Shown here: one piece after another, positions 7,757 through 64,000 of the stretch | Layout of the letters: every line of letters begins with the position of its first letter | Position numbering within the stretch: the first letter of the stretch is position 1 | Origin: Acarospora socialis | Taxonomy: Eukaryota > Ascomycota > Lecanoromycetes > Acarosporales > Acarosporaceae | NCBI GenBank assembly: GCA_025617375.2 | Contig: JAMYGW020000010.1 | Coordinates: 124,001 to 188,000 of the forward strand | DNA length: 64,000 nucleotides | Direction: 5' to 3' | The notes under the pieces: model-generated | Database searches by the model: none | The model's input: only the letters and a program-made list of their open reading frames with translations | What the model was told of the DNA's origin: nothing | Program-made: the position numbers and the translations under genes

Positions 7757-9182
7757 GATTGACGGAACTTGGTGATTTCAACGGATTTCATGAGCCTACT
7801 CTTCAGGCAATGCTGTTCAGCTCTCACTCCTCGAATATCTTACCGGGTATCTGGCAACCTGAACCTAAGACCAAGTAAATAAATGCTTTGATGAACATGA
7901 GACAGTAAAGTATGGGTATAATAGGGTTGTTGGTCGAAATTTTAGTTGGATTGTTCTGCGACTACTCGGCAGCCGACTATGTCCAAGATGTTTGACGTAT
8001 TTGAGTGAGCTATCTTCCGAAGACGTTTTGATCTACCACAAAGCTTGAGAGACTACTCACACGGCGGTTGTACCGGTTAATGTGATGAGGATCGTCTAAT
8101 GTTTCTCAAAGCTTGCTGTATAAAAGCGACGCGTCCATTTTTCCGGAGCCATTTCACTCGTGTCACCTCCGGTCCTGGCGGCGCATCCGAGTGGCGCATC
8201 CGAGTTCTTTCTCAGGTGGTTATGAAGAATGCTGAGCGAGTTCCTAGAGCTTCTCATTAACTTATTGATATAGACCCAGGCAACCCTTTCTTTAATTAGC
8301 AATCTGAAACGGAAGAGGCGGGAATTGTGATCTCAAGGCTAGGATGATTCAAAGAAGCCAAGAAGAGCACCATCCATATTTTGTCGTTCTTCCTCCCTTC
8401 CCATCAACCTGCCGACACCGCCAAAGACGGTCTCGAGATCGTACACCTCACCAATCATGGCTTTAAACCTCTTCGATGGTCTTCGGCAACCGCTGATTTC
8501 CCCAGAGTCGACGATACGGGATGGGTCATGGTGTAATAGTGAGGACACTTGCAGCAACCGATGATGGATCCATGAGAGAAACGTAGGACACTTGTTATCG
8601 TAGTACGGCGGGATCATATCTGAAAAGACGATGATGGAGGTGGAATATCTTATTAATGCCCGCTCTTGTTATTCTAGCATTGTGCGATAAGCCAAACGGG
8701 TGCTCAGGGCTGCGGCTGTTCTGATACTGTCAGCTTCATAGTCATATGTAAATAACTATCCTCTAAATTCGTTCTGATACTGCTAATTCAATTTTCGGGC
8801 ATCATAAGTCTTGCAATCATCTTATTTTCTGCAGATCGAAACATGCTGAGGCCTACTTCCACTGGAGCCTTGTTGGTGAAGCAAACAAAGCTGGATAGTG
8901 GTAGAAACATGAGTGGATGGTGTACAGATATCGCTAATGTAGGCTGGCTTAGTATTTCGAGGTTATGGGTGTTGTCGTGCCATCTGAGGAGGACATGCTG
9001 TAGGGAGCCTGGGATCATTATTATTGAGTCGCTGTCCCAGCCATTTAACATGTGCAACGCTATGCTCATACCAAAACTTTCTTCGCATTGCATATCCTCC
9101 ACGCCAAGTTTCTGACGGTACCATCGGCTTGCACTACCTCTGGCGCGAACTCGATACCAAACCTAGCCCTATTAGGATCAGA

Positions 9183-17725: not shown

Positions 17726-20700
17726 ATGACAGTAAGTGTCTCTAAGCTTAGCCATTCACCAACGACTGTAGCAATTCCTTGCCGACGTCTTTGCACATTC
17801 AAAAGCCACCTCGCCACCATACATTTTCGTTGTGCCGTACGCGCAAGCGGTCTCTCGTTTCTGTTTATACAGTGACTGCGAAACAGATCCATCCGCATCC
17901 TGCCCCGAGGGCCAGAAGAGCTTGGTCTCTAACATCTGTGTGAACAGGACTCCAAGATGCAGGTCGATGGGCCCACCGCAAATGGGGAGCAGCCGAAGCA
18001 TGGCGAGATCGACGAGTCCTTATACAGCCGACAACTGTGAGTTTCTGAGACACTCTGTTGGTCTATAATCTGATACGTGGCGTAGTTACGTACTTGGCCA
18101 TGAAGCGATGAAACGGATGGGTTCCTCGAACGTTCTCATTGTTGGACTGAAGGGTTTGGGCGTCGAGATTGGTAAATAATTACGACTGTGTACATGGATC
18201 TTCAAGGGAGATTACTCACACTCTATCGTTAGCCAAGAATATTGCACTTGCTGGCGTTAAATCTCTCAGCCTCTACGATCCTACACCGGCTTCGATTTCG
18301 GACCTCTCCTCCCAGTTTTTTTTACACCCCGAGGACGTTGGCAAGCCTCGAGCTGAAGTAACCGCTCCACGGGTGGCAGAGCTCAATACATATACACCTG
18401 TGTCGGTGCACTCTGCGACAAGCTTGACCTCGGATCTCAGCCAGCTCAAGCAGTATCAAGTCGTGGTGCTCACTGCGACATCGTTGAAAGACCAAGTTAC
18501 GATCTCGCAGTACTGCCATCAATATGGTATCTATCTTATCATTGCGGAGACATTTGGATTATTTGGCTCCATCTTTACGGACTTCGGGAAGAGCTTTACT
18601 GTTGTAGATGCGACAGGGGAACCGGTAGTGAGTGGCATAGTTGCGGACATTGATTCGGAGGGACTGGTGTCTGCCCTTGACGAGACGCGTCATGGCTTAG
18701 AGGATGGCGATTTTGTGACCTTTTCCGAGATACAAGGCATGGAAGGTCTGAACAATGCCGAGCCTCGTAAGGTCACAGTCAAAGGTAAGACCCACGGCTG
18801 TTCACGTGGAATGTTTTCCAGCCAAACTAACTCTATGTAGGACCGTACACGTTCTCAATTGGAGATGTTTCCGGTTTGGGCGAGTACAAAAGCGGCGGTC
18901 TCTATACTCAGGTCAAGATGCCCAAGTTCATCGACTTCGAGCCTTTTACCGAACAACTCAAAAAGCCCGGATTATTAGTCTCTGACTTCGCCAAATTCGA
19001 TCGTCCTCCGCAGTTGCATATCGGCTTTCAAGCCCTACATGCTTTCGCCGAAAACCACGGCGGGGAATTTTCACGCCCGCACAGCGACGCGGATGCATCA
19101 GAAGTTCTAAAGCTTGCCCAAGAGCTTGCTGCGCAGGGTCATGACAAGATCGAGCTGGATGAGAAGCTGATCCGCGAACTAAGTTACCAAGCGCGCGGCG
19201 ACCTGAGCCCAATGGCTGCATTCTTTGGTGGCTTGGCTGCACAAGAGGTTTTGAAGTCAGTGTCTGGCAAATTCCATCCAATCGTACAATGGCTCTATTT
19301 CGACTCACTCGAATCTCTTCCGTCATCTGTGAAACGATCGGAGGAACTTTGCAAGCCGCTGGGAACAAGGTACGATGGACAAATAGCTGTATTCGGCAAA
19401 GAGTTTCAAGAGAGAATCGCAAACATCAGGGAATTCTTAGTCGGTGCTGGAGCCATAGGGTGTGAGATGCTCAAGAATTGGGCGATGATGGGACTCGGCA
19501 CTGGACCGAGGGGCAGGATCGCAGTTACAGACATGGATCAGATTGAGAAGAGCAACCTGAACCGACAGTTCCTATTTAGACCCAAAGATGTGGGAAAGTT
19601 GAAGAGCGATTGCGCTGTGGAAGCCGTACAGGCCATGAACCCGGACCTGAAAGGCAAGTTCGTGACATACAAAGATCGAGTTGGACAGGATACCGAGCAT
19701 GTTTTTAATGAACATTTCTGGGAGGAGCTCGACGGTATCACAAACGCTCTTGACAACGTCGATGCAAGAACATACGTAGACCGTCGGTGTGTCTTCTTCC
19801 GCAAACCGTTACTGGACTCAGGTACCCTCGGAACGAAGGGCAACACTCAGGTAGTCCTGCCGAATCTGACAGAATCGTACTCGAGCTCTCAAGATCCGCC
19901 AGAGCAGTCGTTTCCAATGTGCACGCTCCGAAGCTTCCCCAACCGGATCGAACATACCATCGCATGGGCGCGAGACCTATTTCAGTCATACTTCGTCGGC
20001 CCACCCGAGACAGTAAATTTGTACTTGACACAACCCAATTACATCGAGAAAACTCTCAAGCAGACTGGAAATGAGAAGCAGACTCTAGAAAATATTCGCG
20101 ACTTTCTCGTCACAGAAAAGCCACTGGGTTTTGAAGACTGTGTCATCTGGGCTCGGCAGCAGTTCGAGAGGCAGTATAACAATGCGATCCAGCAACTGCT
20201 CTATAACTTTCCGAAAGACTCTCGCACATCAAGTGGCGCGCCATTCTGGTCCGGACCCAAGCGTGCTCCAAATCCACTCAAGTTCGACATCAACAACAAG
20301 ACTCATCTGGGCTTCATCATTGCTGCTGCCAGTTTACACGCCTTCAATTACGGAATCAAGAGCGCCGGCTTCGGAGAAGAGCAGTATAAGAAGGTTATGG
20401 AAAACATGATCATTCCGGAGTTTTCTCCCAATCCCACGGTGAAGATACAAGCGGACGACAACGAACCAGATCCGAACGCGCAGCCTACCAGGTCTGGGTT
20501 TGACGACAATGAGGAATTGCAGCAGATTTCCTCTACATTACCCCCTCCGAAATCCTTGGCCGGTCTCCGACTGGTGCCGGTAGAGTTCGAAAAAGATGAC
20601 GACTCGAACTACCATATCGACTTCATCACAGCTGCGAGCAACTTACGGGCGGAGAACTATGCGATCGCCCAGGCTGATAGACTCAAGACTAAATTCATCG

Positions 20701-21273
20701 CTGGCAAGATCATCCCGGCGATCGCCACCACCACTGCATTGGTCACTGGTCTCGTAGTCCTGGAGTTATATAAGATCATCGACGGCAAAACCGACATCGA
20801 GCAATACAAGAACGGCTTTGTAAACCTTGCACTGCCCTTCTTTGGCTTCAGCGAGCCTATTGCGAGTCCGAAAGGGAAGTATCTAAGCAAAGACGGTGAA
20901 GTCACCGTCGACAAGCTCTGGGACCGGTTTGAGGTGGACAACGTGACGCTGAACGAATTCTTGGAAATCTTCAAACAAAAGGGCTTAGATATCACAATGG
21001 TCAGCTCCGGGGTCAGCCTGCTCTACGCAAGTTTCTACCCGCAGAGCAAATTGAAGGACCGAATGCCATTGAAGTGAGTATCGATCATTTCCTTCACTTA
21101 AAGTGCAACAGTGTGGGAGTTGACATGGGAATAGGTTGAGCCAGCTGGTGGAGACAATCAGCAAGAAACCGATCCCGGAACACCAGAAGAATGTCATCTT
21201 CGAGATTACAGCGGAGGATCAGACCGAGGAAGATGTCGAGATCCCATATGTTATGCTAAAGCTGAGAAAATAG
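17726..21273 (+). CDS. UBA1: Ubiquitin-activating enzyme E1
   Basis: Six exons: 17726-17731, 17948-18036, 18086-18171, 18233-18784, 18841-21073 and 21135-21273, giving about 1034 residues against 1024 in yeast. The first coding exon is only ATG ACA. If it is not used, translation could begin at ATG 17957. The protein has the inactive adenylation half ([33 protein letters not shown]) and the active half ([18 protein letters not shown], with NLNRQFLFR). The catalytic cysteine is in [15 protein letters not shown] at about residue 605. The C-terminal ubiquitin-fold domain binds E2. It activates ubiquitin with ATP and passes it to E2 enzymes in cytosol and nucleus. All key motifs are intact. Confidence 0.95.
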
Positions 21274-53504: not shown

Positions 53505-53651
53505 TTCATGAGCCTCAGAATAAGAAAGCTCCTTAGAACATTGTTGTGTGCTTACCAGTAAGTCTCAATTGTACAAGTATGGGTAAACAATATACTCGTA
53601 GTGCACAAAAGAAACAGTTATTTCATGATTTCCCACCAAAATGTTACATCC
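53505..53651. other. Boundary between gene-rich and AT-rich DNA
   Basis: Within about 100 bases the composition falls from roughly half GC to strongly AT. A short frame from ATG 53579 (MGKQYTRSAQKKQLFHDF) runs up to the LINE tail. It may be the 5' coding end of another eroded gene or element, but too little remains to name it. Confidence 0.4.
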
Positions 53652-54230
53652 TATTTATATTTATTTATTTATTTATTTATTTATTTATTCTTCATTCTAT
53701 GCATGCAGCTATTAAAGCTATGACAGTTAATAGACATATAGTGAAAGATGTAAACACAAATCAAGACTCAAAATCTTATACATGTGAATAATCAATCTGA
53801 TTACTTTTTAATCACTTCTGTTTAGTCAATTTAATGCTGATTGTCAATTAATTAAATTTTTTTCTTTTTTAATTTTCAATTTTGTTCTCAATCTTCTTTA
53901 ATAGTCACTTTCTAGTGACTACTTTTGTTTTTTTCAAAAACAATAAAGTAGTCTTGATTTCTTTTTTAATGATAAACAACACTTTTACTGTATATGACAG
54001 ATTGATGTTTTTGAACTGATTTTTCAGTTTAATTTACTTTTTTTTATTATGCTGACAGACTGTCAACAGATGTTCTGAAGTTTAATCTTTGTTATAAGTA
54101 TCATTGTATTTTTTGTTGTCATAGTTTGACAATTTATGCAAGTATGCTTTGAAATAATCATGATTTAATTTTATTTATGTAAATATAACAAATAAAAGTC
54201 TGTCTGCAAGTTTTAGATCTTCTTTAATTT
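53652..54230 (-). mobile_element. LINE copy A, 3' fragment (Tad1/I-like)
   Basis: Read on the minus strand, this is the 3' end of a non-LTR retrotransposon. It begins inside the ORF2 C-terminus (a decayed version of the Cys/His-rich region), then the 3' UTR, and ends in a run of AAAT-type tetranucleotides that appears on the + strand as repeated TTTA at 53652-53690. It matches copies B and C over its whole length but carries many more C-to-T and G-to-A changes. At 54231 it is interrupted by the LTR of a retrotransposon fossil, so the LINE was there first. Confidence 0.85.
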
Positions 54231-54415
54231 TGTTATGAATTCATAGAGCTCAACAAAATTGAGACTCTGCAATAAGATGAGACTCTGTAAAAATACTCAG
54301 CATTAATCTTTAAGAAGTCTGTATCTGAGTAAAATATCACTTTCTAAATAGTTTTCTCAAGCAATTAACACTTTATCATAAACTTAGAAATTAATCATAT
54401 AAATTGATTTTAACA
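54231..54415 (+). repeat. LTR copy 1 of the retrotransposon fossil
   Basis: 185 bp, starting TGTTATGAATTC and ending TTGATTTTAACA. It is directly followed by a short stretch (GATAGCATCAACTG) in the place of a primer-binding site. Confidence 0.75.
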
Positions 54416-55505
54416 AATGATAGCATCAACTGATTAAAGTATTCAGTCTAAATTTTCATATCTAGACATCAGTGAGCTCAAAAACACTGCATTAAAATTG
54501 TTCTCTGTGATAGTCTATGAAACACACACAAAATCAAACAAAAAACAAGACATTTGCTTCATCAAATCAGTCTAATTTCAGCATTATGATCAGTATTAAT
54601 TTGATTAAACACACAAAGAAATAGCAGCAACAGCATGATCTGACAAAATATCTGAATTTTGTTGTTATTTTACACAAAACTTCATAAATGTTCTGACTAA
54701 TCAAATAGAGATCACTTATTTTACAGATGCTGCACAAAATCATCTTGTTCTGACTGACATCAATGAGATGTATGACATCATTGAAAAGTCACATGCAAAC
54801 TTGAACATCAAAATAAATACTCAATTCAATGAAGTTCTTCAAGCACTACATCATTGATTCACATCACAACAATCACATCATTTCATCAGTTCACTGATCT
54901 CATCAAAAAACACAACAAGACAGTCTTTAAAAGACAGAGAATGAATTAATAATGACTATAATTTAAAGAATTTAAGCAAAGATTACATTGCTGATGCATG
55001 AAAGAGTGAAGAGCTTGAATTTTGAACTTATGTTGATGAACTCTGTATGATGATGTTTTGTGTAAAAGAAATTGATCTTTTTGATCTGCATCTATCTATT
55101 GAGTATGATGATGATGACATCATCAGTGTGAACAAAACAGTGTACTATCATGATGTTCATTTATTTGTGTCATAATGTCAGATTATAGTCAAGATTTGAA
55201 GACAATGAGATGATTTGAACAAATTCTCATGCATGTTTTTGTGATATCACACTCACTTGATTTGCAGTCAAATCATCACTTGAATGAACAGATCTTTTCA
55301 GTGAACTTGATAAATGAATATGAAAACTGATGACTCAATTTAAGATCTTGTTGTCACAGACTATAAACATCTTACTAAAGAAAAAGTATACAGTGAAGAA
55401 TGTTCACAATGACTGAGATCTCATGATCTACATACAGACTGTTGTTTGATACAGAAAATTGATGAAATTACCACTATATAATTGTGTACTTTTTGTCTGA
55501 CAAAA

Positions 55506-56172
55506 TATTATGAATTCATAGAGCTTAACAAGATTGAAACTCTGCAATAAGATAAAACTCTGCAAAAGTATTTAACATTAATTTTTAAGAGATCTGCATC
55601 TGAGTAAAACATCACTTTCTAGATAGTTTCTCAAAAAAATCAACACATTATCATAGACTTAAAAAGAGTGATCAAGCAGTATAGTGAATGTATACTGCTT
55701 AAGTGATCTAAGAAATTAAGTGAAAAACTAGAGAAGTAGTGATCTCACTAGTATATTGCTTAATTTCAAAGGTCATAAATTCAAATTTCACATCATTCAC
55801 CAAATCAACCATCAAGTCATTCAGTTGTATAAGAAAAACAAGTGATGAAAAATTCTACAGATCTTAGTTGTCTATAAAAGACACTATATACACAATCATT
55901 TATCTATTATTTAGACATCAAACTCCAAATTTTCTTAACTACTGATCACTGAGATCCACAATCAGATTGACTGTTCAGAAGTGATCAATAAGCAATTAGA
56001 ATTATCAGAATAAATCTGTAATTCATATATTATACATATGAATTGTCAGAATAAATCTGCATATTCAACAAATGTTCTACTAAGCTGTCATAACTACTAT
56101 AGTTGCATGTGATGTATGAAGAATAAATAAATAAATAGACTTAAAAATCAATCATATAAATTGATTCTAACA
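55506..56172 (+). repeat. LTR copy 2, carrying a SINE insertion
   Basis: Same LTR as copies 1 and 3, interrupted by the SINE at 55666-56136. An 11-bp target duplication (AGACTTAAAAA, 55655-55665 and 56137-56147) flanks the insertion. The downstream sequence matches that after copy 1. Confidence 0.75.
55666..56136 (+). mobile_element. SINE copy 1 (tRNA-like head, LINE-like 3' end)
   Basis: About 470 bp, flanked by a perfect 11-bp target duplication. The 5' end folds as a hairpin (AAGCAGTATA, 7-nt loop, TATACTGCTT). About 100 bases in lies a tRNA-like region: an A-box-like stretch near 55740, then GGTCATAAATTCAAATTTCAC near 55773, a decayed B box (compare GGTTCGAATCC). The final 150 bases resemble the 3' end of the neighbouring LINE, including a CAGAAGTGATCAA block and the TGAAGAATAAATAAATA tail. 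It has no coding frame. A non-autonomous element moved by LINE machinery is the best reading. It lies inside LTR copy 2, so it is younger than the LTR element. Confidence 0.85.
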
Positions 56173-57391
56173 ATTAATAACATCAACTGTGTTAAGCAGT
56201 CAGTTTAAATCTTCATATTTAGACATCAGTGAGCTCAAAAACATCACATCAAAAAATGTTCTCTGTGATAGTTCATGAAATCAAACAAAAAATGAAATAT
56301 TTGCTACATCAAAATCAAATCACTATGATGACTAAATTTTCAGAAGACAAGACAGCAACTGTACATTCTGATGAAACAAGCTCTGAATTTCATCATTGTT
56401 TTACATGAAACTTCATAAATACTCTTGTCAGTCAAATAAAGAATATTCATTTTTCAGAAGATAAAAAGCATCAAAACAATTTTATCTTAATGAGTATCAA
56501 TGAGATGTATAACATCATTAAAAAGTTAAACATCAATTTGAACATCAAACTTGATCTGATTCTTCAGTAACAAATTTCTTATTTATGACTTTATTGTTCT
56601 GTCAGCTCACTGATCTCATTAAAGATAATAGTGAAATGTTTATTGATGAGCTCAGTGAAGAGTAAGAACAATGACTATAATCTAGAAAGTTTAAACAAGA
56701 AGTATGTTGACAAATGAAAAGAAAAAGAGCATAAAATTATGTCTGATTTATCTGTTTGTGAGACTCTGTATTGTGTTGACAACAATATTTGTTCAACAAC
56801 TTTCTGTGTTGATGAAATAGACTTTTTTGACTTACATCTTAATGAAACTATTGATGAAAGCAAGATCAATATTGTTTAAGTTAACTGTGATGTCTACTAT
56901 TATAACATTCATCTCTTTATTAATCAGATCAGAACAATTGTCAATGTTAAAGACAGTCATTATGTATGAATTAATCTGCATTCATATCTTTGCAGTGTTA
57001 TTCAGAAATGATATGCAGTCAAACTTGATGATATTCAGCAAGATGACATGCAAGATAATCACAACATCACTAACTGAGTAAATGTTCTAACAGTCTGTTT
57101 CAAGCAATCAGAGCAAGTCACTCTTAATATTTTTTTTACTCTATGTTACAGTGTCAAAAATGTTCATAAATGTAGTTCTGCATCATATATTCAGACTGTT
57201 GTTTGATACAGAAGAAATACTGACTTTTTCATGTCAAATCAGTTATTCATAGTCTGAAACAAACTTGATGCTGATCTTCAATGTAATGTTTTGTATTCTA
57301 CAATTCACATCACTGTTGTGACATTCATCTCACAATTGAAAAATCACAAGAACATATAAATATAACTGTTTTGTTCTATGTTGTCATGAGA

Positions 57392-57520
57392 CTTCTGTTG
57401 ATACAAATCTTCAAATTATACTTACTTAGTGAACTCACATTAATATAAATCTTCAAATCACACTTATTCAGCAAACTCACATCAATACAAATCTTCAAAT
57501 CATACTTACTCAGTAACAAC
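57392..57520 (+). repeat. Three 42-bp tandem units in the LTR fossil
   Basis: Units begin at 57392, 57434 and 57476, each about 42 bp (14 codons) with a TACAAATCTTCAAATCA core. They lie in the capsid-region part of the old element, before the SINE copy 2 insertion. Confidence 0.7.
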
Positions 57521-57719
57521 TCAATATTCTTATGAACAATCTCTGAATTGTGATTACTCTACAATGAGTGCAATGCATCTCTACAAAAATCAAGAAAATT
57601 AACAACAATAATAACTTTTTCATTCTCAATTCATTAGTCAGTCACATCAAGAACATGAGTCTTGAAAACAGTGATCTCAGTCAGCTTATCATGTAGATCT
57701 GAACAACAATGTTGATGTA

Positions 57720-58189
57720 TTTATTTATTTATTCTTCATACATCACATACAACTATAGTAGTTATGACAGCTTAGTAAAACATTTGTTGAATATGCAGAT
57801 TTATTCTGACAATTCATATGTATAATATATGAATTACAGATTTATTCTGATAATTCTGATTGCTTATTGATTACTTCTGAACAGTCAATCTGATTGTGGG
57901 TCTCAGTGATCAGTAGTTAAGAAAATTTGGAATTTGATGTCTAAATAATAGATAAATGATTGTGTATATAGTGTCTTTTATAGACAACTAAGATCTGTAG
58001 AATTTTTCATCACTTGTTTTTCTTATACAACTGAATGACTTGATGGTTGATTTGGTGAGTGATGTGAGATTTGAATTCATGACCTTTGAAATTAAGCAAT
58101 ATACTAGTGAGATCACTACTTCTCTAGTTTTTCACTTAATTTCTTAGATCACTCAAGCAGTATACATTCACTATATCACTTGATCACTC
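57720..58189 (-). mobile_element. SINE copy 2, inverted relative to copy 1
   Basis: The same element in the opposite orientation, about 97% identical to copy 1 by eye. It is flanked by a 12-bp target duplication (AATGTTGATGTA at 57708-57719 and 58190-58201). Its B-box region (ATGAATTCAAATCTCAC) is slightly closer to a tRNA B box than in copy 1. It interrupts the internal part of the LTR fossil. Both copies end in the same AAAT-type tail as the LINEs. Confidence 0.87.
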
Positions 58190-59303
58190 AATGTTGATGT
58201 ATATTCTGCAGACTACTATGTGAATTAACAAAACAGTGAATATATTGATCAAGACTTTAATCAAGACAAAATGACAAAGTATAACTATGCAAATCAAGCA
58301 ATTGCACAGCATATCTATTCATGTCAGACATGTGAAAAGATCTTTTCTTCAGCTGTCATCTCAAATATTATATTACTGACACTCATTACAACTATCTTGT
58401 CTTGTCATATCACACTGACAGTGTCATCTCTATTAACTATGTCATCACAAAGATCAGCATCAACAGTTTCATTATTAAATCTCAGTTTATCTGTCTAGAC
58501 TCTGATGTCATTCACACACTTATTGACTGCAGTTTAACCATCAAAAATCTCTCACAATTTAGCAAAACAACCTTACAAATCAACAATATCATCAGCAACT
58601 TTATCTTCAACAAGCATGTCAATCTATGTCTTTACATTCATGATGACAACAGCAAAGACAAAGAAAAGATCTTTGTCAATTGCAAAACTTACATCATGAA
58701 TGATCTCAACACAAACATTTTTATTAACATGAACATCATGCAGACAAAAGACATGGTTTTGAACTGCAGAAATGACAAGTTAATTATGAATAGTCATTAT
58801 GAATTTATGACTTTCTTTACTAGATTCTTGAAGACAAGTGACACAAAATGAGTTGTTGTCTTTTTCTATGAAATGACAGTACAAATGACTACATCAAGTT
58901 TTCACAAAAAAATGTTTGAAAAGACCTCAAAAAACACACAAAATTCAGCAATTTTGAACATTAAATTAGATGCTAAAATGACTGTCAAATCAATGATGAA
59001 ATCACTTTCTCATGTATGTCACACATGTTACATGTTTTATCTATCATCAAATAGTCTTCACAGACATCTTCAAATGTCTGATTACATCTTATCTCATCAT
59101 TCTCATTCTTGTTGTCACTGTTCATATCATTGACTCAATAAACTGTGAAGAAAAGACATTGATAAAAAAATCATAATGAATAAAACTACAAGAGACATTT
59201 TGACACAGAAGATTAGCAGAAAACATTCTCATCATTATGCTTCATACTAATATGACTAGTATGTGCAACAAGAGCATCATCTTTCAATGTTTTCATGAAC
59301 AGT

Positions 59304-59488
59304 TGTTATGAATTCATAGAGCTCAGCAAGATTGAAATTCTATAATAAGATAAAACTCTGCAGAAGTACTCAGTACTAGTTTTTAAGAAATCTGCATCTG
59401 AGTAAAACATTACTTTCTAGATAGTTTCTCAAAAAATTCAACACATTATCATAGACTTAGAAACCAATCATATAAATTGATTTTAACA
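59304..59488 (+). repeat. LTR copy 3 of the retrotransposon fossil
   Basis: 185 bp with the same ends as copy 1. It is followed by internal sequence related to the stretch near 57.4-57.7 kb. Confidence 0.75.
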
Positions 59489-59930
59489 CAAAATCTCAAT
59501 TCAACACTGCAATTGCATATTTCACAACTCACAATTGAGATCTTCAAGACTCAATTCATCAACCTTTTACTGAAAAAGAAAGAGATGTGAATATGACACT
59601 TTATGAAACTCTTGTCACTGCATGACTTCTGTTGATATGAATTTTTGAATTGTGACTACTTTACAAATTCACTTTACTACACAAATTTACATTTTTACAA
59701 ATCTTCAAATCACAGCAGTTACACTATGACATACTCATCTTATTCTTATGAAAATCATAACTATAACTCACATCAAGATAACAGATCACAATCTCTGCAA
59801 TCTCAGCAGTCTCTTTGTTCACAATGAGTGTTTCACAAGTACAAATCTCATGAGCATGAGTTTCATATGCACAAAAATCAAGCACATTCTCAGTCAGCCT
59901 ATCATGCAGATTCTGATGATGACATTGAAG

Positions 59931-61148
59931 TATTTTTATTTATTTATTTATTTATTTATTCTTCATTCTATACATGCAGCTATAAAAGCTATGGCAGTTA
60001 ATAGACATATAGTGAAAGATGTAGACATCAAACAAAACTCAAATCTTGTACATGTGAATAATCAATCTAATTGCTTTTTGATCACTTCTGTTCAGTCAAT
60101 CTGATGTTGATTGTCAATCAATATCTTTTTCTTTTCTAAATCTTATCTTCACTCTTAACTTCTTCTAATAACCATTTTCTAGTAGCTACTTTGATTTTCT
60201 TCAAAAACAGCAAAGTAGCTTTGATTCCTTCCTTGATAGTAAACAGCATCTTTGCTGTATATGGCAAATTGATGTTTCTGAGCTGATTTTTCAGCTCAGT
60301 TTGCTTCTTTTTGTTATATTGACAGGCTGTCAACAAATGCTCTGAAGTTTGATCTTTGTTGCATGCATCATTGCATTTCTTGCTGTTATAGTCTGATAAT
60401 CTATGCAGATATGCTTTGAAATAGTCATGATCTAATTTTATTTGTGTAAAAGTAGCAAATGAAAGTCTGTCTGCACTTTTCAGATCTTCTTTGATGTGAA
60501 AACTAGGTGTTTGATCAAACTGAGCATAGTATCTTTCTTGAGTTGTCTTTTTTCAGTGAGTAGTTCAGTTTTTCAGTGCTTTGACCTTGATTTTGTGTTT
60601 GATATAGCTAATAGATGTAAATCTATCAATATCTGGTGAAATTGACTGCTTTGCACCTGATTTTGCAGCTTTATCTGCTATTTCATTGTCTTTAATGTTC
60701 TTATGTTCAGGGATTCAATGAATATGAGGTGTAACTTCATAATCTATGAGTTTTTGAAGAGTTTCTTGATATTTAATAGCTAGATGCTGTTTAGATCCTT
60801 GATTTGTGATTTGAATTCTTTGTATAGTTGCTTGATTGTCTGAAAAGATTCATATGTCTTTGATTCTTTGATATTTCATGATTTCTTTGAGACTTAACTT
60901 CAAAGACTGTGAAATTTCAAACAATTCAGCATCATAGACTTCCATGATGGTTTCTAGATTTCAAGATTGTTGATGTATAATATCTTTATACATGTAGCAA
61001 AGACCTGCACCTAGATTTTCATCTAGTTTTGACTCATCTGTGTACAAAACAGCATTTTTAAACTTGATTTTCTTAGAGAAAAGTGTTTCTAGTCTCTTTA
61101 GATGTTCCAAAGTAGTCAGTTTCTTGTCAGATTTGCTGATTTGAATGT
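59931..61148 (-). mobile_element. LINE copy B, 3' part, interrupted by copy C
   Basis: On the minus strand this carries the 3' UTR, the ORF2 C-terminal Cys/His region and most of the RNase H domain, matching copy C almost colinearly. It ends in a TTTA-run tail (+ strand 59931-59965) placed in the internal part of the LTR fossil. At 61148, within the RNase H upstream region, it stops where the tail of copy C begins. The break falls inside the coding sequence (after GATTTGAATG, which continues in C at 62353), so C inserted into B. Many stops interrupt the frame, mostly by C-to-T or G-to-A changes at CC/GG. Confidence 0.85.
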
Positions 61149-64000
61149 TTTATTTATTTATTTATTCTTCATTCTATGCATGCAGCTATAAAAGCTATGG
61201 CAGTTAATAGACATATAGTGAAAGATGTAGACACAAAACAAAACTCAAAATCTTGTACATGTGAATAATCAATCTGAATACTTTTTGATCACTTCTGTTC
61301 AGTCAACCTGATGCTGATTGTCAACCAATATCTTTCTTCTTTTCTAAATCTCATCTTCATCCTCAACTTCTTCTAATAACCATTTTCTAGTAGCTACTTT
61401 GGTTTTCTTCAAAAACAGCAAAGTAGCTTTGATTCCTTCCTTGGTAGTAAACAGCACCTTTGCTGTATATGGCAAATTGATGTTTCTGAGCTGATTTTTC
61501 AGCTCAGTTTGCTCCTTTTTGTTATATTGACAGGCTGTCAACAAATGCTCTGGGGTTTGATCTTTGTTGCATGCACCATTGCATTTCTTGCTATTATAGT
61601 CTGGTAATCTATGCAGATATGCTTTGAAATAGCCATGACCTAGTTTCATTTGTGTAAAAGTAGCAAATGAAAGTCTGTCTGCACTTTTCAGATCTTCTTT
61701 GATGTGAAAACTAGGTGTTTGATCAAACTGAGCATAGTATCTTCCTTGGGTTGTCTTTTTCCAGTGAGTGGTCCAGTTTTCCAGTGCTTTGGCCTTGATT
61801 TTGTGTTTGATATAGCTAATAGATGTAAATCTATCAATATCTGGTGAAATTGACTGCTTTGCACCTGATTTTGCAGCTTCATCTGCTATTTCATTGCCTT
61901 TAATGTTCTCATGTCCAGGGACCCAATGAATATGAGGTGTAACTTCATAATCTATGAGTTTTTGAAGAGTTTCTTGACATTTAATAGCTAGCTGCTGTCC
62001 AGATCCTTGGTTTGTAGTTTGAATTCTTTGTATAGCTGCTTGATTGTCTGAAAAGATCCATATGTCTTTGATTCTTTGATATTTCATGATTTCTTTGAGA
62101 CTTAACTTCAAAGACTGTGAAATTCCAAACAATTCAGCATCATAGACTTCCATGGTGGTTCCTAGATTCCAAGATTGTTGATGTATAATATCTTTATACA
62201 TGTAGCAAAGACCTGCACCTAGATTCTCATCTAGTTTTGACCCATCTGTGTACAAAACAGCATTTTTAAACTTGGTTTCCTTAGAGAAAAGTGTTTCTAG
62301 TCTCTTTAGATGTTCCAAAGTAGCTAGTTTTTTGTCAGATTTGCTGATTTGAATGTCTATGTTTGGTGAAACACTCCAAGGTGCACAGCATAACTCATTT
62401 TGAGTTGAAACCTCCAAATTTAGTGTTTCTGGTAGATATTTGCAAATGCTATATAGCACTTTAATCAACTGAGTTGGGTGTTTCTTCTTAATGAGAGAGT
62501 TTGGATGTTGATTTCAGTCAAGATAATGATTTTCATCAATATCACATCCAGTTCCAAGTCCTGGTGGGTAGGTGTATGGAGTTCTTTGTCTAATTGGATG
62601 ATTTTCTGACAAAGTAGCTATTCTTAAAGCATATAGCTCTGTTTTTTGATCAAGTCTAAATCTGGGTGGTAATATAGCTGATTCTAGCTCCATAGCAGCT
62701 GATGGTGAAGACCTAAATGCACCTAGAATTTTTCTAGTTGCTGAATTTTGAAGTTTTTGAAACAGCTTTTCAAAATTCTTTTGTTGTTTCCACCATACTG
62801 GGCTTCCATAGTCACTTATAGATGTGATGCAGGCTGTGTACAGCTGTTTTCCAGCTGATGTTGATAAACCCCATTCAGAATTCATCAGTCTATGCAGTAA
62901 ATGCAATGTTCTAGTTGCAGAAGCTATTTTCTTTTGCACATGTGTCTTAAAAGACATTTTAGTGTCAAACCAAACACCTAGCCAGTGTACAACTTTAGAA
63001 GGATGTATAACAGTGTTATTTGGTAGTTTTACTGTTGATATAGCTTGATTTCCTTTCTGAAAATGGATGAGTTCTGACTTGCTGTCATCAAATATAACTG
63101 CATTTTCTTCAGCCCATTGAAATGCAGTTTTTGTGACTGATTCTAGTGTTTTGCTGTTGTCTGCAGCTGTTTTTCCTTCCACAATAATAGCCACATCATC
63201 AATATAGCTTGGTAGCTTTAGTTGAGTGTGTTTATTGTTGATTTTTGTGAATAGAAATCGCATATAGATCAAAAATAGCATTGGTGATATAGGTGATCCT
63301 TGTGGAATTCCAGAATTGACACTTTGTGAGTGATTTTTTTCACCATCAAAAGCTAGAGCAATTGTTCTATTTGTAAGAAAGCATTGCACCCATTTTAGTA
63401 CAGTTTGTGGTAAATGTAGTCTTTTCATGACTTTTAGCAGTTGATTTAAAGACACATAGTTAAATGCACCCTTAACATCCAAGAATAAAGCTGTCAAGAC
63501 TTTGTTGTTGTTGATTGCTTGTTGAATGTCATGTGTTAAACACATAGCTGCATCCACAGCTGATCTTTGCTTTCTACCGCCCATTTGCTCATGATATAGC
63601 AAGTTTGTGGTTTCAGCCCAATAGGAAAGTCTTGTTGCCATTATCTTTTCAGATATTTTGCCCAAGCAATTTAGTAGAGTGATTGGCCTATATGCTTTGG
63701 GTATTGAATAGTCTGCTTTGCCTTCTTTTCTTAGAATTGCACCAGTTCCTTGACGCCAGCATACTGGATGATAACCTTGATTTATTAAAACTGAATAAAC
63801 AGTGTGAAATAACTCAGATATAGCTTGATATGCATGTTGAATTATCAAAAAGGACAATCCATCTGGCCCAGGTGCTTTTTTTGTTGATGAAGTCATAATA
63901 GCTTGTTTTATTTCCTTAGAAATGACTGAAAACCATGGTTTTGTGAGACTATTATCACATTCTAGCTCAACTGAACTTGTTTGAGGTGGTTTTGGAAACA
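61149..64000 (-). mobile_element. LINE copy C, youngest copy, runs off the window (Tad1/I-like)
   Basis: A non-LTR retrotransposon on the minus strand, with its 3' tail of TTTA units at 61149-61165 and its coding region extending past 64000. The order of domains is reverse transcriptase, RNase H, then a Cys/His knuckle near the C-terminus, as in fungal Tad1-like and other I-group LINEs. The 5' UTR, ORF1 and endonuclease would lie beyond the window. It interrupts copy B. It keeps more CC and GG than the surrounding DNA, in line with being the most recent insertion. Confidence 0.9.
61344..64000 (-). CDS. LINE ORF2 (reverse transcriptase and RNase H), partial, one internal stop
   Basis: The frame is open from the window edge to the stop at 61344-61346 except for one in-frame TGA at 62514-62516, between LD and NQHPNS. 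Reverse-transcriptase motifs in order are APGPDGLS, YRPITLLNCLGK, FLDVKGAFNYV, GIPQGSPISPMLF, the catalytic YIDDVAI and WLGVWFDTKMSF. RNase H shows YTDGSK, EVYDAELFGI, FSDNQAAI and HWVPGHENIKGNEIADEAA, so the four catalytic acids are present. A CX3C...HX4C knuckle (CNGAC...HLLTAC) follows. The TGA is most simply a TGG codon changed by CC to TC on the + strand, the change typical of this region. Otherwise the copy looks recently active. Confidence 0.9.

Follow-up and report, generated by a model that had tools for sequence, protein, structure and literature searches.

Few SINE/LINE pairs of fungi came up in the literature searched here. A review table lists Mg-SINE with MgL/MGR583 and SINE2-1_BG with Tad1-24_BG for this kingdom (PMC3747384), and in Aspergillus fumigatus the element AfuSINE2-1a, which has a tRNA-derived head and an estimated number of 4 copies, is reported to end in a sequence similar to the 3' UTR of I-1_AF, a LINE of the Tad clade (PMC5063351). 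Furthermore, a common 3' stem-loop has been cited for Tad1 in fungi (PMC5135761).

The window analysed here, a stretch of 64,000 nucleotides from Acarospora socialis, contains two copies of a SINE together with copies of a LINE, and paralogous empty sites, target duplications and a structured common 3' end are all present in it. The rule that a SINE borrows the 3' end of a LINE can therefore be examined in this window. Here it is proposed that the element is very probably a tRNA-headed SINE whose tail came either from this LINE or from a relative, and that it was probably mobilised in trans by target-primed reverse transcription.

SINE copies, target duplications and empty sites

An AT-rich island, with 31% GC against 51% in positions 1-53000, takes up the final 10 kb of the window (53660-64000). 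Retroelement copies are abundant in this island, and the remainder of the window is ordinary gene-bearing DNA. The latter includes an ORF for ubiquitin-activating enzyme (UBA1) at 18876-21077, for which the top scores, up to 1063 bits, came from chains named 'Ubiquitin-activating enzyme E1 1', with a lower score of 892 bits for 'Ubiquitin-like modifier-activating enzyme 1'; the former chains are yeast proteins and the latter human, by which the host appears to be a fungus. Within the island, an older repeat is present in three diverged copies, each beginning at about the same point (54230, 55505 and 59303), and a TATGAATTCATA-like palindrome, seen by eye, adjoins this start. Also, a 149-aa open frame (58402-58851) is found in the CpG-free sequence between the SINE and LINE copies, which by eye is vaguely similar to an LTR-element protease and had no match in a Pfam search.

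The two SINE copies, copy A (55666..56137, + strand) and copy B (57718..58189, - strand), are 472 nt long each, 97.2% identical and located 1580 nt apart in opposite orientation. They differ at 13 positions, all of them transitions (13/13), and they are the only copies seen in the 64-kb window. Each copy is flanked by a target duplication that is perfect over at least 10 nt and has a different sequence in each case. For copy A this is GACTTAAAAA, at 55656..55665 on the 5' side and 56138..56147 on the 3' side, and for copy B it is AATGTTGATG (as read on the + strand), at 58190..58199 on the 5' side of the element and 57708..57717 on its 3' side. The duplications reach 13 nt when an ambiguous ATA, shared with the tail, is counted, and that of copy B reaches 14 nt with one more ambiguous base at the other end. 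The original prediction had described two near-identical elements of about 470 bp in opposite orientation, with target duplications of 11 and 12 bp; the elements agree with this description, and the two lengths lie within the ambiguity of 10 to 13/14 nt.

Copy A is located within one of the three copies of the older repeat. The two other copies of this repeat lack the SINE and have the target region only once, in the paralogous empty sites at 54233..54812 (+ strand, junction 54378-54390) and 59306..59488 (+ strand, junction 59451-59463). Because of these two empty sites, copy A is an insertion, and its ends are set by the target duplication together with the empty sites. No empty site for copy B was found in the window. 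Neither SINE copy has an ORF of at least 120 aa, a repeat search with a minimum of 40 nt reported no terminal direct repeats on the SINE, and a scan of a 24-nt SINE string against bacterial and archaeal contigs found no relative.

A local difference between the copies is found at SINE positions 12-14, which read CAG in copy A (55677-55679) and TGA in copy B (58176-58178), with the CAG version completing a 10-bp hairpin. This difference would fit an ancestral CpG that was resolved differently in each copy.

LINE copies, common 3' end and CpG depletion

The island has three LINE copies, all on the - strand. Copy L3 (61149..64000) is a 3' part that runs off the window, with a 3' UTR at 61149-61343 and a reading frame at 61344..63998, which includes 885 codons in the window, counting the terminal stop and one internal stop. 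In one frame it encodes a reverse transcriptase (E 5e-35) and, downstream of it, an RNase H (E 4e-12), and the internal stop falls between these two parts. A reverse transcriptase with an RNase H downstream in one frame is as expected of a Tad1-clade LINE, and RNase H occurs in LINE clades besides Tad1. Searches for relatives of the RNase H part among bacterial and archaeal contigs, and of the reverse transcriptase part among viral contigs, found none. Copy L2 (59943..61148) is 5'-truncated and 95% identical to L3. Its start immediately adjoins the AAAT tail of L3, a layout that would result if a LINE were inserted into the tail of another. Copy L1 (53672..54228), which is also 5'-truncated, is 82% identical to L3, and no target duplication was seen in the flanks of L1 that were examined. 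What the window holds of L3 goes from the reverse transcriptase/RNase H part to the 3' end, with the endonuclease and the first ORF beyond its limit. A complete candidate system of SINE and LINE had been proposed for this locus; both elements are indeed found in one window, but the word complete is too strong, because L3 leaves the window, its frame has an internal stop and the promoter boxes of the SINE are imperfect.

The last part of the SINE, of about 188 nt (SINE positions 285-472; 55950..56137 on the + strand in copy A and 57718..57905 on the - strand in copy B), is similar to the LINE 3' end. When the AAAT run is excluded, copy A aligns with the LINE 3' UTR over SINE positions 285 to 444/445, with a score reached by 0/1000 dinucleotide shuffles for L1, L2 and L3 each, which rules out a likeness limited to AAAT repeats and upholds the predicted homology of the two 3' ends. 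With SINE positions 1-405 only, which leave out the terminal block, the score is still higher than in all 1000 shuffles for each LINE copy, although the margin for L1 is narrow (24, with 23 in the best shuffle). For positions 1-290 similarity to the LINE is not convincing, as the scores are reached by 63, 512 and 24 of 1000 shuffles for L1, L2 and L3, respectively.

The identity of the SINE tail to L2 is about 70% over 179 nt (E 8e-15, with the AAAT run included in the alignment). Compared with the LINE, the tail has about 80% identity in the two best blocks, a diverged middle and a 14-nt insertion specific to the SINE. Because the identity is moderate and the middle is diverged, the tail was not taken recently from copies L1-L3 themselves; likewise, with an identity to these copies of no more than about 70-80%, the LINE that served as helper may be a relative or another LINE. 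The common 3' end also includes a terminal stem-loop of 5 pairs (56091..56105, + strand in copy A), and the five-pair stem is kept in 5/5 aligned sequences (two SINE and three LINE). One of its pairs is changed on both sides, from G-C in the LINE to A-U in the SINE; this compensatory change is one covariation event and falls short of proof.

The island is also nearly devoid of CpG. Its 10.3 kb (53660-64000) have 3, an observed/expected ratio of 0.01, compared with 3198 and a ratio of 0.92 for the first 53 kb of the window, and the last CpG ahead of the island is at 53597. All 3 CpGs of the island are in L3, with none in L1, L2 or either SINE copy. The island has elevated TpG and CpA but not TpA (TpA/ApT 0.67), which argues for CpG loss rather than classical CpA-directed RIP; with TpA not raised and CpG nearly absent, the latter was not favoured as the main process.

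Independent CpG loss after insertion would be expected to leave CA/TG disagreements between copies; the two SINE copies have 1 of these, L2 compared with L3 has 0 and L1 compared with L3 has 1. Additionally, the L3 frame of 885 codons is nearly open (one internal stop) and nearly CpG-free, and its arginines are encoded by AGA/AGG in 25/27 cases, compared with CGN in 21/31 for the UBA1 ORF. The few disagreements, together with this frame and its arginine codons, suggest source elements that had hardly any CpG by the time of insertion. Of the 59 differences between L3 and L2, 50 are C-to-T or G-to-A when L3 is taken as the starting sequence, and 6 have the opposite direction. Because 33/50 of these changes are at CpC, although CpC makes up 56/418 of the C contexts there, a process other than CpG loss acted as well after the insertion of L2. 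In Coccidioides, as described in the available parts of the reports, transposons have 28-39% GC (PMC5872316) and repeats are mutated especially at CpG and CpC (PMC9409882). Escape of the elements from a CpG-directed mutation process is plausible but unproven, and a LINE frame that is CpG-free but nearly open leads to the question of whether retroelements escape CpG-directed genome defence by purging CpG.

tRNA-like head and proposed mode of mobilisation

The head of the SINE, 137 nt long, corresponds to 55666..55802 (+ strand) in copy A and 58053..58189 (- strand) in copy B. The first 7 bases of the element (55666-55672 in copy A, + strand, as for the other parts given here) pair with 7 bases at the expected position of the acceptor 3' strand (55792-55798), which begins five bases past a T-loop-like TTCAAAT (55780-55786) and is followed by one base and then CCA (55800-55802). 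This acceptor stem is fully Watson-Crick in copy B and has one G-U pair in copy A. In a score for tRNA geometry, each copy has 19/21 features, with 3/5 T-stem pairs formed; none of 20,000 dinucleotide shuffles of the first 200 nt of either copy reaches 19, and the best score at 9126 other start positions in the old DNA of the island is 17. Both heads also fold into structures more stable than any of 200 shuffles (z -6.0 for copy A and -4.1 for copy B). For copy A the prediction contains the acceptor stem and two extended arms, a long one at the D position and a very long one at the anticodon position, and leaves the T-arm region unpaired; in copy B the D arm is missing in the minimum-energy and centroid folds alike.

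Standard tools do not report this head as a tRNA: ARAGORN with default settings found 0 tRNA genes in the whole window, and Rfam had no tRNA match in 55600-58250 with E values up to 10. A relaxed ARAGORN match on copy B was dropped as evidence, as 55/500 shuffles also match. A tRNA is about half as long as the 137-nt head, and this length may be the reason why profile tools fail. A strict B-box scan gave 6/9 for copy B and 5/9 for copy A, with the B-box-like sequence in register, and A-box-like strings (6/7) are found at position 4 in copy A only and at position 64 in both copies. A tRNA-like head with a recognisable B box had been predicted; tRNA similarity is present in both copies through the geometry of the head, and the boxes are imperfect.

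The same evidence bears on the other origins that were considered. A non-autonomous LINE derivative, in which most of the body was deleted and unrelated sequence with a chance resemblance to a tRNA was substituted, would account for a tail that is LINE 3' UTR and for the silence of ARAGORN (default) and Rfam. However, the first base of the element is also the tRNA 5' end, pairing at the acceptor position ahead of N-CCA; in addition, the tRNA score is beyond all shuffles of both copies (0/20,000) and positions 1-290 are without convincing similarity to the LINE (24 to 512 of 1000 shuffles), which makes such a derivative improbable.

Having only two copies, 97% identical and 1580 nt apart, the locus could also be seen as one inverted segmental duplication instead of two retropositions. 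Against this, the reported inverted repeat spans the SINE and ends where the element ends, and copy A has empty paralogues; as target duplication and flanks also differ from one copy to the other, this origin was rejected, and we regard it as very unlikely. As to LTR elements, their target duplications are shorter. The SINE is a short mobile element with a tRNA-like sequence, and in this it resembles the small RNA-derived, non-autonomous LTR elements of the Helenus/Ajax type, as these are presented in the available text (PMC10886601), but its LINE-like 3' end with AAAT repeats, its duplications of at least 10 nt and the lack of reported terminal direct repeats (minimum 40 nt) leave this as the least credible of the three origins, with hardly any weight.

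For the preferred reading, a SINE with a tRNA-derived head and a LINE-derived tail, the following route is proposed. The head would descend from a tRNA, perhaps one whose anticodon arm was enlarged because its gene had an intron, and would once have provided an internal RNA polymerase III promoter. The source of the last ~188 nt would be the 3' UTR of this LINE or of one closely related to it. The LINE reverse transcriptase would recognise the common 3' end, consisting of the stem-loop and the AAAT repeats. Target-primed reverse transcription at a nick in the target would then copy the SINE RNA in trans and leave duplications of 10 nt or slightly more. In this process, a primer ending in TAT may anneal to the AAUA repeats of the SINE RNA tail. 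The presence of ATA at the targets is as expected from such annealing: the ATA in the copy A target is found at both empty sites, and copy B has ATA in its 5' flank as well. ATA is also read at the 3' junctions of L1 and L2, where it is indistinguishable from the tail repeats. The original prediction had interpreted the locus as a SINE mobilised by its partner LINE; its structural part was right, and its mechanism most likely is.

A further observation on target sites is that the 3' flanks of SINE copy B and L2 are homologous, with 32/45 nt identical and no gaps, and the point at which they join the tails is the same, as if the same site had been used in two copies of one old repeat. Their score of 47.5, against a maximum of 39.5 in 1000 dinucleotide shuffles, is a modest excess for one pair of flanks; L2 abuts L3, so the matching 5' flank for this comparison falls outside the window.

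Comparison with described SINE/LINE pairs

Pairs of this kind are already known in fungi. In a literature search, no title or abstract start among the matches listed described this particular family, and in a search with three sequence strings the only SINE paper among the matches listed, going by titles, was the AfuSINE report (PMC5063351). The suggestion that the family seems undescribed thus holds for the family, within those matches, and not for the kind of system.

Ten of the thirteen published AfuSINE sequences were compared with the two SINE copies. Only AfuSINE2-1a stands out, and in the head only (z 6.0 for copy B and 5.2 for copy A, 0/300 shuffles each); for the next best, AfuSINE2-4a, 14 and 25 of 300 shuffles reach the score. 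The body and the tail of copy B have no detectable relation to AfuSINE2-1a (98 and 205 of 300 shuffles). The two heads are identical in 54/86 aligned columns; 12 of these form an uninterrupted match, CTAGAGAAGTAG, which lies at the T arm of the SINE head and in register with it. With 3000 shuffles, the head score is reached by 0 for copy B (z 6.0) and 1 for copy A (z 5.0) under transition-tolerant scoring, and by 9 and 62, respectively, under plain scoring. By region of copy B, positions 1-61 show nothing (2252 of 3000 transition-tolerant and 2969 plain), the box region 62-104 is weak (106 and 48), and positions 75-145, with the T arm, give 4 (transition-tolerant) and 261 (plain). Against real DNA, one of 2640 genic windows scores higher than the head (21.0 vs 20.9), and among 816 island windows the top score, 19.7, comes close to it.

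When folded here, the published AfuSINE2-1a head resembles a cloverleaf whose central arm is long, with CTAGAGAAGTAG paired (z -3.7); the authors, in the available part of their report, describe all of their heads as lacking a cloverleaf fold (PMC5063351). Common descent of the two heads is likely but unproven, with the match in sequence being suggestive only. Both elements have a tRNA-derived head and an end similar to a LINE 3' UTR, and they differ in that AfuSINE2-1a ends in ACT repeats and the SINE described here in AAAT repeats. Also, the sequence listed for AfuSINE2-1a opens and closes with the same 14 nt (PMC5063351), an arrangement comparable to the duplications that flank the two SINE copies. 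If the head is truly common to both, the modularity of SINEs, with a constant head and exchanged tails, could be traced across fungi.

A wider reading is put forward only tentatively, and we hold it to be doubtful as a whole. It would place at least AfuSINE2-1a and the SINE described here in a fungal SINE superfamily. The head of its members would still be a tRNA cloverleaf, in which a retained intron or its remains enlarge the anticodon arm, and their bodies and LINE tails would have been swapped between species. The SINE and LINE of this window would, in addition, have survived as lineages without CpG, on which a mutation defence directed at CpG has nothing left to act. The LINE would keep its frame nearly open through its AGA/AGG arginines, and the SINE would use a CpG-free T-loop/B-box core (TTCAA).

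The remaining systems were compared by description only. Mg-SINE of Magnaporthe grisea is tRNA-derived, has a LINE tail, is said to fold as a cloverleaf and has a reported length of 472 bp, in the parts of the papers available (PMC3747384, PMC5063351); its equal length to the SINE described here may be a coincidence. SINE2-1_BG of Blumeria graminis is a fungal tRNA SINE that shares its tail with a Tad1 LINE, Tad1-24_BG (PMC3747384), and is given as derived from tRNA-Gly (PMC5063351). Beyond fungi, the comparison included the eel LINE UnaL2 and its SINE partner, UnaSINE. The eel pair belongs to the L2 clade, has TGTAA repeats and was tested experimentally, whereas recognition by the LINE is inferred for the pair in this window. 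As described in the available text, the eel elements have a common 3' end consisting of a stem-loop and short 3' repeats, with recognition of the stringent type (PMC3747384, PMC5135761), and it is this arrangement that the SINE and LINE of the window resemble.
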